The notes below the pieces were generated by a model. The model ran no database searches. It was not told the origin of the DNA and saw only the letters and a program-made list of their open reading frames with translations. DNA of 64,000 nt. It comes from Clostridiaceae bacterium (GTDB lineage: Bacteria > Bacillota_I > Bacilli_A > Erysipelotrichales > Coprobacillaceae). A program made the position numbers and the translations under genes. The DNA is taken from assembly GCA_902363625.1 (NCBI GenBank), contig CABJAS010000010.1, forward strand, positions 26,060 to 90,059, given 5' to 3'. This document shows, piece by piece, positions 7,789 through 63,755 of this stretch (its first letter is position 1; each line of letters starts with the position of its first letter).

Positions 7789-9972
7789 TTATCTGCTTAA
7801 ACTTCTTCTTTTTTTCTCTACTGCAACTAATGCCGCTGAAACTAAACCAAGAAGAGCAAAGGCACTGTATAATGAAGCATTTGTCTTATCTCCTGTTGAA
7901 GGATTATCCGTATTTTCGGTTTTGTTTTCTCCTTTGTCATCAGGTTTAACGACTTCCTCTACTGGTAATTTTTCATAAACCGCTGTAACAACTAAATCTT
8001 TAGTTACCTTACTAAAATCTGTATCCCATTTAATAAATGTATACCCTTCGATAGTTGGGGCAGCTGGAGCGGTTGCTTTTTCTCCATCTTTTACAGTTTC
8101 TATTTTTAACACTGCTCCATTCATATCCACAAAGATGACTTCATGTGTAGATCCTTCCGGAGTTGGTGCTGGTGTCACTGTTTTTTCTTCAAAAACAACT
8201 GCATAAGTTGAGAATCGATCTGTCTCAAATGTAATCACATTATCTGTTAACGCAGCTTTGATTTTATCCACTTTTCCTTCGTGCATACGTAATACATAAA
8301 CATCTTTATCTTTTGCATTCTCTGCTACAGCGTTTGGTAATACAACAGTGAAAGTTAACGGTTTAGGCAATACTGTGATATTACCTAAAGGAGTTGTTGG
8401 TGTTTTTACTAAAACACTTAAATCAAGATACATTGCAACTTCTGTCACACTGTTATTTTCCTGAGTAATTTGTTTCAATTCTTTTTCAATCGCTTTGATA
8501 TCTTCACTCGCCTGTGGATTTGCTGTGTTGATTTCTTCTACTGTTGGATTTACTGTAATTGTTTCTCCTGATGCAATCGCATCATTAATATTTTGTACTG
8601 TTTTTTCATCAGTATATACTGAATCTGTACCTTTACTGATAATATCATTTAATGTATCATTTAAAATTTCAGGTGCTTTTTCATCATTTAACCCTGCCTG
8701 CGGTTTCTCTACCGGTTTTTGGGTATCGACAGAAGGCGGTGTTGGGTTTTCTACCTTATAAACAGAAACTACACACTCTGCTTTTGCATTTCCTGCTGTC
8801 GCAGTAATTGTTGCTTTCCCCGGTGCCACTGCTTTGACTACACCATTTTCTACAACGGCGATTTTTGGATCACTTGATTCCCAAGTCACTGTATCCAACG
8901 TTTCATTTGGATTTACAGTAGCCGTTAATGTTTTGTTAGAGCCTGCTTCTAAAGTAAGTGTTGTATCTGATAATTCAATTCCTGTAGCAATAGGAGCTAC
9001 TTTGAATGTATCTTCAATCGGATATGCTTTGTAACCTGCTTTTACATAGTCAGTTGGATCAGAATCAAAAGTTCCCCCTATAACCTGAATATGGTCTTTC
9101 GCATCTGTCCATTCTGACGCAGTGTTTTTAGACCATGTATAAGCTAACAGTCCTTCACTGTACACAGATTTAAAGGTTCCCCCTGAAATAGTTACATTTG
9201 GTACAGAACTATACCCAGGACGGTTTACGATAGAAATTGCTGCACCATCGGGAACAGCTCCATCCCCTGTTTTGTCAACACGATGATCCTCACCGGTTCC
9301 TTCAATCATACCACCATTGATACTTACTACAGAAAGATTTCCTGCGCAAAGCTGAATGCCAAGATCTCCCTTGACTGTACCGCCATTAATCGTAATTTCT
9401 CCAGTCTGTGGATGATAGATTGCTGCTCCAGTTCCATCAGGATCAGAATTTAAAACTGAACCACCATTAATTGTAATAGTTGTTCCATTATTGTTTAAAC
9501 CATTCCCGGCAACACCATACCACTCACCTTTCAATGTACCGCTATTAAGTGTTAATTTAGAATTAACAAACACCCCAACAGCACATTGATAACCGAATAT
9601 TGAACCGCCACCGACACTGTCGTTAACGATCAAAGACGAATCGAATAATCGGATAGGAGCAGCCGTTTTATTTACACTCTCCCCCGTTAGTGATTGCGTA
9701 ACTTTCTTTCCGTTCAATTCTAAAACAAACGATTTTCCATTAACATCAATCGTGCTTTCTAAATTTATATCATTTAGAAGCTTAATAGTTTGACCCTCTG
9801 CCACATTTTGAACCGCATCAGATAATGATGTATACTTAGTTTCTCCTATTTCCGCAACATTTTCTGTATCGTTGATTTCATTTTCACCAACCGCATTCAC
9901 GGAAACTAAATTTCCCATGATCAAACTTCCAATCATCAATACAGAGACGAATAGACTTATTGTTTTTTTCAT
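7789..9972 (-). CDS. Wall-anchored surface protein with beta-helix, Big_2 and InlB B-repeat domains
   Basis: A 727-residue secreted protein. Visible in order: signal peptide (about 1-27); repeated ITINGGTV / VTISGGTF rungs of a right-handed beta-helix (about 60-305); a bacterial Ig-like Big_2 domain (about 329-406); a mixed domain; an InlB-type B-repeat (about 610-667); then the sorting signal NPSTGD (690-695), a hydrophobic helix and the tail KKRRSLSR. It should be covalently attached to the wall by a sortase. The beta-helix suggests carbohydrate or host-ligand binding, but no catalytic residues were identified. Its upstream region contains the inverted-repeat switch described separately. 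Confidence 0.88.
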   Translation of the reverse strand: MKKTISLFVSVLMIGSLIMGNLVSVNAVGENEINDTENVAEIGETKYTSLSDAVQNVAEGQTIKLLNDINLESTIDVNGKSFVLELNGKKVTQSLTGESVNKTAAPIRLFDSSLIVNDSVGGGSIFGYQCAVGVFVNSKLTLNSGTLKGEWYGVAGNGLNNNGTTITINGGSVLNSDPDGTGAAIYHPQTGEITINGGTVKGDLGIQLCAGNLSVVSINGGMIEGTGEDHRVDKTGDGAVPDGAAISIVNRPGYSSVPNVTISGGTFKSVYSEGLLAYTWSKNTASEWTDAKDHIQVIGGTFDSDPTDYVKAGYKAYPIEDTFKVAPIATGIELSDTTLTLEAGSNKTLTATVNPNETLDTVTWESSDPKIAVVENGVVKAVAPGKATITATAGNAKAECVVSVYKVENPTPPSVDTQKPVEKPQAGLNDEKAPEILNDTLNDIISKGTDSVYTDEKTVQNINDAIASGETITVNPTVEEINTANPQASEDIKAIEKELKQITQENNSVTEVAMYLDLSVLVKTPTTPLGNITVLPKPLTFTVVLPNAVAENAKDKDVYVLRMHEGKVDKIKAALTDNVITFETDRFSTYAVVFEEKTVTPAPTPEGSTHEVIFVDMNGAVLKIETVKDGEKATAPAAPTIEGYTFIKWDTDFSKVTKDLVVTAVYEKLPVEEVVKPDDKGENKTENTDNPSTGDKTNASLYSAFALLGLVSAALVAVEKKRRSLSR

Positions 9973-10041
9973 AATTTTCCTCCTTTTAAATCACTCACTG
10001 TTTTCCTCATCAGTTTCCCTATAATCCCCCCTAGTACAAAA

Positions 10042-10152
10042 GTTTACTATTTGTTACAAGAATGTTATGATTTATTTGACAAATATTGGTGCGAATAAAC
10101 CTATATTTTTATTTGCTACAGACCTTAGAATTATGTGTAACAAATAGTAAAC
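10042..10152 (-). promoter_or_regulatory. Putative invertible promoter switch bounded by 17-bp inverted repeats
   Basis: GTTTACTATTTGTTACA (10042-10058) recurs as its exact reverse complement at 10136-10152, bounding a 77-bp AT-rich segment. The segment lies in the 227-bp gap between the surface-protein start (9972) and the end of the serine recombinase gene. Promoter-like elements occur in both directions: plus strand TTGACA at 10076 with TATATT at 10102 (20-bp spacing) or TTGCTA at 10113 with TGTAAC at 10136 (17 bp); minus strand TTGTCA with TGTAAC at 18 bp. The state (ON or OFF) cannot be read with certainty. Inference: DNA inversion by the adjacent recombinase gives phase-variable expression. 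Confidence 0.75.
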
Positions 10153-10199
10153 CTTAAGTTACAAAAAAATATAATTCATTTGCAAATTTAAACCTATTT

Positions 10200-10805
10200 T
10201 TATAGCTTTCCTTTAATAAACTGCTTCACCCAGCGAGAAAAAGTCATGTGGCTGACATTCAGTATTTCACTGGCTTTTCTTAGACTGATTTTCTCATCCA
10301 GCCATAGTTGAAGAATTTCCGGGAATTCTTCGGGAATCTTTTTTGGTGGTCTGCCAAAAGCAACCCCTTTTAATTTTGCTTCACGGATTCCCTCTGCCTG
10401 TCTTTGACGAATATTTTCTCTTTCCACCTGAGCCACATAAGAAAGGATTTGCAGTACTAAATCGGAGATAAATTTTCCTGTAACGCCATTCACTTGATTT
10501 CTGGTATCTAGTAATGGAGAATCTAAAACAATAATATCAATATTCTTTATATTCGTTAGAAAACGCCATTGCTTAATTATCTCATCATAGTCTCTGCCTA
10601 AGCGGTCAATCGATTTGATATACAATTCATCCCCCTCCTGCAGTTGTCTGAGCAGTCTTTTATAGCGTGGACGATTAAAGTCCTTGCCGGATAACTTATC
10701 AATATAAATTTTATCTTTCATTATGCCAGCCTGTTTCATTGCTGACATCTGCCGATCGATATTTTGGTCTTTGCTTGACACTCGCACATAACCATATTTC
10801 TTCAT
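10200..10805 (-). CDS. Serine site-specific recombinase (Hin/resolvase family)
   Basis: A 201-residue resolvase/invertase. The catalytic domain has YGYVRVSSKDQ (nucleophile Ser10), the arginine motif SIDRLGRDYDE (Arg68, Arg71) and the long E helix (about 105-140, ending VERENIRQRQAEGIREAK). GVAFGRPPK leads into a C-terminal helix-turn-helix (about 160-195, ISLRKASEILNVSHMTFSRWVK). This compact size is that of DNA invertases and resolvases, not of large serine integrases. The gene lies directly next to a perfect inverted repeat in front of a surface-protein gene, so its job is probably to invert that segment. Confidence 0.9.
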   Translation of the reverse strand: MKKYGYVRVSSKDQNIDRQMSAMKQAGIMKDKIYIDKLSGKDFNRPRYKRLLRQLQEGDELYIKSIDRLGRDYDEIIKQWRFLTNIKNIDIIVLDSPLLDTRNQVNGVTGKFISDLVLQILSYVAQVERENIRQRQAEGIREAKLKGVAFGRPPKKIPEEFPEILQLWLDEKISLRKASEILNVSHMTFSRWVKQFIKGKL

Positions 10806-62482: not shown

Positions 62483-63755
62483 ATTGAACTTAGAAAACGC
62501 AAAGCTAGATCAAGATATTTTATCATATAGTGATAAAGTAAAAGAACTTCACAGCATGATTCATGAAAAAACTGGTAAAGGAAATGACTTCTTAGGTTGG
62601 TTAGACTGGCCGGTTAATTATGATAAAGACGAAGTTGCAAGAATTAATGCCAAAAGTAAAGAAATCATTGAAAAAGTAGATGTCTTATTAGTTTGCGGAA
62701 TCGGTGGTTCTTACTTAGGAGCAAGAGCAGCAATTGAAGCATTAAACGGAATCTATCCAACAAATAAAGTGAAAATTATTTATGTAGGGAATACATTCTC
62801 ATCAAATTACATTGCTCAAGTAGTCGAATTCATCAAAGATAAAGAATTTGCAATCAACTGTATCTCAAAATCTGGTACAACAACGGAAACTTCTATCGCA
62901 TTTAGAATTTTTAAAGAATTAGCAGAAAAGAGATATGGAAAAGAAGAAGCTAAAACACGTATTATTGCCACTACAGATAAAGAAAAAGGGGCATTGAAAA
63001 CATTAGCTGACAATGAAGGCTATGAAACTTACACAATCCCTGATGATATCGGTGGTCGTTATTCTGTTTTAACAGCTGTTGGTTTATTCCCAATCGCAGT
63101 AGCTGGAATTAACATTGAAGAAATGTTAGCAGGTGCCGCAAAAGCAAGAGAAGATTACAACAACCCTGATTTAGCTACAAATGACTGCTATAAATACGGT
63201 GTTGCTAGACAAATGTTGAATAACCAAGGATATCCAGCAGAAATGTTCGTAACTTACGAATTGCAGTATGCAATGCTTGCTGAATGGTGGAAGCAATTAT
63301 TCGGTGAATCAGAAGGAAAAGAAAATAAAGGGGTATTACCTACTTCTGCAACATTCTCAACTGACCTGCATTCATTAGGACAATTTATCCAAGAAGGATC
63401 AAAAGTATTATTTGAAACTGTATTGCAAGTAACAAAACCTATTTCAGACATTACTATCCCTGAAGATGCAGATAATTTAGATAACTTAAATTATTTAGCT
63501 GGAAAATCAGTGGATTATGTAAATAAAAAAGCAGCTGAAGGAACTATTGATGCTCATTCTAATACAGGAAATGTACCAAACATCTTAGTTACACTTGATG
63601 AAATGACACCATATTCATTTGGATACATGGTTTACTTCTTTGAAAAAGCATGTGCTTTATCTGTTTACTTATTAGGAGTGAATCCATTTAATCAGCCGGG
63701 TGTAGAAGTTTATAAAAAGAATATGTTCAAATTATTAGGAAAACCCGGAGCCTAA
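62475..63755 (+). CDS. pgi: Glucose-6-phosphate isomerase
   Basis: Interconverts glucose- and fructose-6-phosphate. The 426-residue short Firmicutes form has GGSYLGARA, the SIS-domain sugar-phosphate site SKSGTTTE, the catalytic glutamate in [13 protein letters not shown] segment SLGQFIQEG, and C-terminal [18 protein letters not shown] with the catalytic lysine. The start follows GGAGG inside the end of the S1-domain gene. Confidence 0.97.

Follow-up and report, generated by a model that had tools for sequence, protein, structure and literature searches.

The 64-kb window (the whole stretch of DNA that was analysed) contains a probable phase-variation switch, at which the promoter of a surface protein gene would be invertible by an adjoining recombinase (probability roughly 0.85). 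The initial annotation had proposed an invertible promoter beside its own invertase, and this proposal was strengthened by recurrent pairs of recombination sites across the recombinase family, by flipped segments in Streptococcus, and by a published precedent; inversion at the window locus itself, and the activity of its promoter, are what we infer. In the proposed mechanism, the recombinase would bind two imperfect palindromes, and strand exchange at their common TT core would invert the approximately 103 bp between the cores (Table 1). A sigma-A-type promoter would be split over one of these sites, with the -35 hexamer TTTACT lying on the core, and the -10 hexamer TATGAT, preceded by an extended TG, positioned 17 bp inward. 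As drawn, this promoter would face away from the surface protein gene, towards the recombinase gene at its 3' end (OFF); inversion would turn it towards the gene for the NPSTG surface protein (ON).

Organisation of the locus

The predicted target encodes a protein with Big_2 and Listeria-Bacteroides repeat (Flg_new) domains identified by Pfam, which has a hydrophobic N-terminus, and a C-terminal NPSTG motif followed by a hydrophobic stretch and a basic tail. The open reading frame, domains and C-terminus agree with the wall-anchored surface protein gene originally described on one side of the repeat. The counterpart in Beduini massiliensis GM1 is 78% identical and also carries NPSTG, and one sortase gene was found in the GM1 genome.

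The recombinase matches the Resolvase domain of Pfam, with a C-terminal HTH_23 domain, and the residues R8, S10, R45, D67, R68 and R71 are all present. Hence it has the N-terminal Resolvase domain, catalytic residues and C-terminal helix-turn-helix of a small serine recombinase of the resolvase/invertase type, as had been surmised from Ser10, Arg68 and Arg71, and its PHROG annotation is "DNA invertase". Membership of the Mpi family was rejected, as the score against the NCBIfam model NF009949 (56 bits) fell far under the cut-off of 272. The window and GM1 recombinases are 97% identical; of 198 codons compared, 66 differ synonymously and 5 nonsynonymously, indicating strong purifying selection on the gene. 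Beyond it, an open reading frame of 181 aa at 11055-11600 matches an AAC(6')-Ia acetyltransferase model weakly (21 bits, relative to a cut-off of 265), and has no Pfam match.

Table 1. Coordinates of the features of the predicted switch, in window positions
Feature	Position	Strand	Basis and remarks
Surface protein gene, predicted switch target	7789..9972	-	ORF, Pfam, C-terminus; 727 aa
RBS-like AAGGAGG ahead of surface protein gene	9979..9985	-	Read from sequence
Recombination site L, GTACAAAAGT-TT-ACTATTTGTT	10034..10055	+	Family profile; predicted core TT 10044-10045
Left arm of perfect inverted repeat	10042..10058	+	17 bp
Predicted -35 TTTACT	10043..10048	+	Overlaps crossover core; geometry recurs in relatives
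Invertible segment between cores	10046..10148	.	103 bp; inferred from site coordinates
Predicted -10 TATGAT	10066..10071	+	Extended TG 10063-10064; directed away from surface protein gene
Right arm of perfect inverted repeat	10136..10152	-	17 bp; 77 bp between arms
Recombination site R	10139..10160	-	Family profile; core 10149-10150, TT on - strand
Serine recombinase gene, presumed invertase	10200..10805	-	Pfam, catalytic residues, PHROG; 201 aa

Between these two genes lies the inverted repeat, whose perfect arms and the spacing between them were recovered by a repeat scan as first reported, and which can be lengthened to 20 bp at 95% identity. No third copy of the arm was found in the 64-kb window with up to 3 mismatches allowed. 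It is the only perfect 17-bp inverted repeat in the window whose gap lies between 20 and 200 bp; among 100 first-order shuffles of the window, 2 contained one. Hence the length of the repeat by itself is just moderately improbable, and its position, together with its agreement with the sites of the recombinase family, is the weightier evidence. An origin of the repeat by chance, to which the two shuffles lend some colour, is scarcely credible, and was rejected, given that the repeat is perfectly conserved in GM1 and that its arms coincide with recombination sites ranked highly by the family profile. A 16-nt direct repeat (88%) is also present at 10096-10111 and 10189-10204, with one copy in the segment and the other at the recombinase gene's 3' end, and may be due to chance.

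Recombination sites across the recombinase family

For relatives of the recombinase, 80 of 82 loci from GTDB contigs were retained and others were added from further genomes, taking best-scoring loci only. A plain scan for inverted repeats separated few of these loci from shuffles, and therefore the sites were scored with a half-site profile blind to the core, the central dinucleotide. Set 1 served to train this profile, and the two held-out sets were scored with it as it stood; a strong pair was defined by a score of 20 or more. Near-duplicates (L019, L023, L045, L075 and L101) were left out of the counts, as were loci with repeated or too-short downstream DNA, reducing set 2 from 77 to 54; in set 3, 58 loci were fetched and 54 were usable.

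Many relatives have two imperfect palindromes, AACAAAAAGT-NN-ACTTTTTGTT, downstream of the recombinase gene. A strong downstream pair was present at 93 of the 224 best-scoring loci (41/116 in training, 30/54 and 22/54 in the held-out sets) and absent from the other 131, while reversed or shuffled DNA reached this score in 1/348, 2/162 and 1/54 controls for sets 1, 2 and 3, respectively. The two cores were equal in inverted orientation in 83 of the 93 strong pairs (39/41, then 23/30 and 21/22 held-out), leaving 10 unmatched. Permuting the cores, which was done for sets 1 and 2, gave at most 25 matches in 41 (mean 16.8) and 13 in 30 (mean 5.9), and when read as direct repeats the cores matched in 0/41 and 2/30 pairs. 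For inversion to occur, serine recombinases require inverted sites that have the same non-palindromic 2-bp core. The matched inverted dinucleotides are the pattern expected of such a crossover core. Across 94 segments, the cores were AG in 40, GT in 21, AC in 18, CT in 5, AT in 3, TT, AA and TC in 2 each, and TG in 1, such that the dinucleotide differs among loci, yet agrees inside each locus.

The window conforms to this pattern, with inverted sites between the recombinase and its target that have the identical non-palindromic core, TT/TT. Site L has the top profile score in the 64 kb, also when the window and GM1 are left out of the profile; site R ranks second with the full profile and third with the reduced one, under which a site at 62761 takes second place by 0.1 bit. 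The sites, their matching cores, their recurrence in the family, and the flipped orthologous segments in Streptococcus described below are established at the level of sequence.

What follows the second site is diverse. The longest open reading frame there often has a hydrophobic N-terminus and at some loci an LPXTG-like end, as judged by simple rules, while L026, L035 and L046 are among the loci with different genes or convergent open reading frames in this position, and several loci are cut. Viral contigs gave 0 matches to the exact repeat pair, and contained two relatives of the recombinase: L249, with an AC/GT pair, and L248, where no strong pair was present. The GM1 genome holds three further relatives of the window recombinase, 54-72% identical (L003, L151 and L152), the first two with AG-core site pairs downstream, and the third with two in-frame stops. 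On the Enterococcus faecalis conjugative plasmid pGTC3 (L250), a 60% identical recombinase is accompanied by a pair of AG/CT sites, and a promoter-like TAGACA-17-TATAAT, its spacing taken from the printed sequence, is directed at a downstream Rrf2 gene and a leucine-rich-repeat gene.

A relative on an Enterococcus gallinarum plasmid (L251), approximately 50% identical and beside a transposition gene, has a single strong site, upstream, and lacks a downstream pair, suggesting that the family grades into resolvases. It also raises the alternative that the window recombinase is itself a transposon- or plasmid-type resolvase, with the repeats serving as binding sites without inversion, in line with the closest solved-structure relatives by sequence being Sin and gamma-delta resolvase, with a Gin-type invertase behind them. 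However, core-matched inverted pairs recur downstream in the family whereas the resolvase-type L251 has none there, and the open reading frames around the window locus, 7 of them named by Pfam, include no mobile-element gene, making this explanation highly improbable.

Orientation among relatives

The closest locus is that of Beduini massiliensis GM1 (L001), among the best-scoring loci, which keeps the recombinase and the surface protein gene. Its inverted repeat is that of the window, with 78 bp between the arms, and the segment is oriented as in the window. The repeat was thus present in a relative that has both genes, where it had been expected if the switch were genuine, and both sites and both TT cores are retained. 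The exact repeat occurs only at this locus in the GM1 genome, once per strand. When the DNA of the switch was searched against 60 genomes, 23 had some match, and GM1 alone matched over the whole switch; no flipped copy of the window locus was found, with GM1, the only close relative found, oriented alike.

Inversion is instead evident in Streptococcus, where the segment of L015 is inverted relative to that of L013 (185 nt, 80%) and that of L016 (183 nt, 84%), with colinear flanks in both comparisons. The cores are AG in L013 and L016 and AC in L015, each matched inside its locus, and the three recombinases are 58-59% identical to that of the window. These flips show inversion within the recombinase family, not at the window locus. 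Hence the search for reversed copies in relatives succeeded in part, finding flipped orthologues in Streptococcus, but GM1 in the same orientation as the window. A wider survey covered 197 loci (some duplicates), giving 4047 pairs with colinear recombinases, most of which were unalignable in the segment. It found inverted matches between L015 and both L013 and its two duplicate copies, as well as a 40-nt match between L225 and L235 (E 0.001), and no others; in 16 pairs the segments aligned without inversion. The inversion between L015 and L016 was not relisted under the survey criteria. Flipped segments were confined to one clade among the 4047 compared pairs.

The shared orientation of the window and GM1 would also be expected if the element no longer inverted, through inactivity of the recombinase or its sites, leaving a fixed promoter that acted, for example, as antisense against the recombinase gene; the 28 of 33 callable loci in which the promoter faces away from the target (see below) fit this too. 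Such an explanation is very unlikely, as it is opposed by the intact catalytic residues and strong purifying selection on the recombinase, by the preservation of both sites and both cores in GM1, and by the flipping of the Streptococcus members. The invertible switch is therefore the favoured reading of the locus.

Promoter position and predicted state

The initial annotation envisaged promoter-like hexamers in both directions, and TGTAAC in each repeat as a possible -10 element, such that the ON orientation could not be decided. The present analysis departs from the last two of these points. The first was not borne out by a consensus promoter scan, which gave a single site, on the + strand only, in which 17 bp separate the -35 from a -10 inside the segment. 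As shuffles average 1.6 sites, this match to the consensus is no better than theirs, and hence the promoter call depends on the recurrence of its geometry. TGTAAC was rejected as a -10 because its position 2 is not A and its position 6 is not T, and TATGAT, whose geometry recurs, is the likelier element.

This recurrence is seen at the 45 loci with AG, TT, TC or TG cores: of their 90 segment ends, 35 have TAnnnT at a spacing of 17 bp from a -35-like hexamer that lies over the core, whereas other offsets from 24 to 63 give 3.0 ends on average and 9 at most. The same offset yielded 6 of 98 ends at the 49 loci with other cores. The grouping of cores was picked after the data were seen, and the rule itself comes from set 1; in the held-out sets the support for the -10 is small in number, at 3/14 AG-core ends in set 2 and 3/8 in set 3. 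With the same inward -35 at both sites, the promoter should outlast inversion, and then face the surface protein gene. In GM1, the predicted promoter is likewise directed away from this gene. Hence the window as drawn is predicted, with good though not full confidence, to represent the OFF state. Among loci with a fitting core and a -10, the promoter is directed away from the downstream gene in 28, towards it in 5, and both ways in 1, although related loci within this tally are not independent, and L015 (AC core) and L250, which face their targets, both fall outside it.

Alternatively, the switch may be real but drawn ON, if the surface protein gene is at present driven by a different, - strand promoter in the segment or close to it, and inversion silences the gene. 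A 47-bp part of the segment beside the surface protein gene is identical in GM1, and the - strand has a weak candidate, TTCGCA-17-AATCAT, which scores 5.1 against 7.9 for the opposite strand. As the recurrent geometry also places the -10 on that other strand, this arrangement is improbable, and OFF remains the predicted state of the window.

More tentatively, the crossover core may itself form part of the -35, as AG, TT, TC and TG cores give hexamers resembling TAGACT or TTTACT, with a -10 exactly 17 bp in, and the remaining cores do not. The recombinase and RNA polymerase would then share, and compete for, the same DNA, so that a given site could undergo either recombination or transcription but not both at once. 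With the switch OFF, the promoter would be antisense towards the recombinase gene and could damp it, keeping the switch OFF, which might explain why 28 of 33 callable loci face away. This idea, which is less likely than not, would if true physically couple promoter occupancy to recombination, and the overlap of core and -35, as well as the 28:5 bias towards OFF, may be new details.

Comparison with known systems

The RecV-dependent switches of Clostridioides difficile resemble the predicted switch of the window in that regulatory DNA is inverted in a Gram-positive inhabitant of the gut. They differ in that RecV is a tyrosine recombinase and acts on several loci. In Bacteroides fragilis, the serine recombinase Mpi inverts the promoters of surface traits at many loci in trans. 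The window locus shares the serine recombinase and, as predicted, the invertible surface-trait promoter, whereas in GM1 the exact repeat pair occurs once in the genome. The hin gene of Salmonella lies inside the invertible segment at fljBA, and inversion needs a Fis-bound enhancer. Here the recombinase gene is instead outside the 103-bp segment, although the serine recombinase, inverted sites, and promoter within the segment are common to both (PMC11868660).

The closest precedent is from Streptococcus zooepidemicus, for which Holden et al. 2009 (PMC2654543) described an invertible promoter of SZO08560, with the adjacent recombinase SZO08550. In that account, SZO08560 is a cell-wall-anchored surface protein with Listeria-Bacteroides repeats, its promoter of approximately 115 bp lies between GTAGACTTTA/TAAAGTCTAC repeats, and inversion was backed by five reversed reads and by RT-qPCR, with forward RNA 44-fold higher. 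This agrees with the initial annotation, which regarded invertible promoters beside invertases as an established mechanism of phase variation. No second description of this recombination site was present among the literature matches listed. In a survey of invertons from 2025 (PMC11892184), Firmicutes_A yielded new repeat motifs, and neither "LPXTG" nor "serine" occurs in its main text.

As in the SZO08550/SZO08560 kind of switch, the window has an anchored surface protein gene (here NPSTG) as target, with Listeria-Bacteroides repeats, an adjoining recombinase, and a predicted promoter between inverted repeats, and the published SZO08560 repeat fits the half-site of the window family with an AG core. 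The two differ in genus, in the TT rather than AG core of the window, in the reads and RT-qPCR behind inversion in S. zooepidemicus, relative to comparison alone for the window, and in the dominance of forward transcription there, where the window is predicted to be OFF. The matched inverted core dinucleotide, and the -10 at a fixed 17-bp distance, make a usable rule by which such switches can be located, and their ON or OFF state predicted, from an assembly. Hence this kind of switch is already known from S. zooepidemicus, and the window locus is a new example, adding a Beduini-like lineage to the thinly described phase variation of Gram-positive surface proteins.
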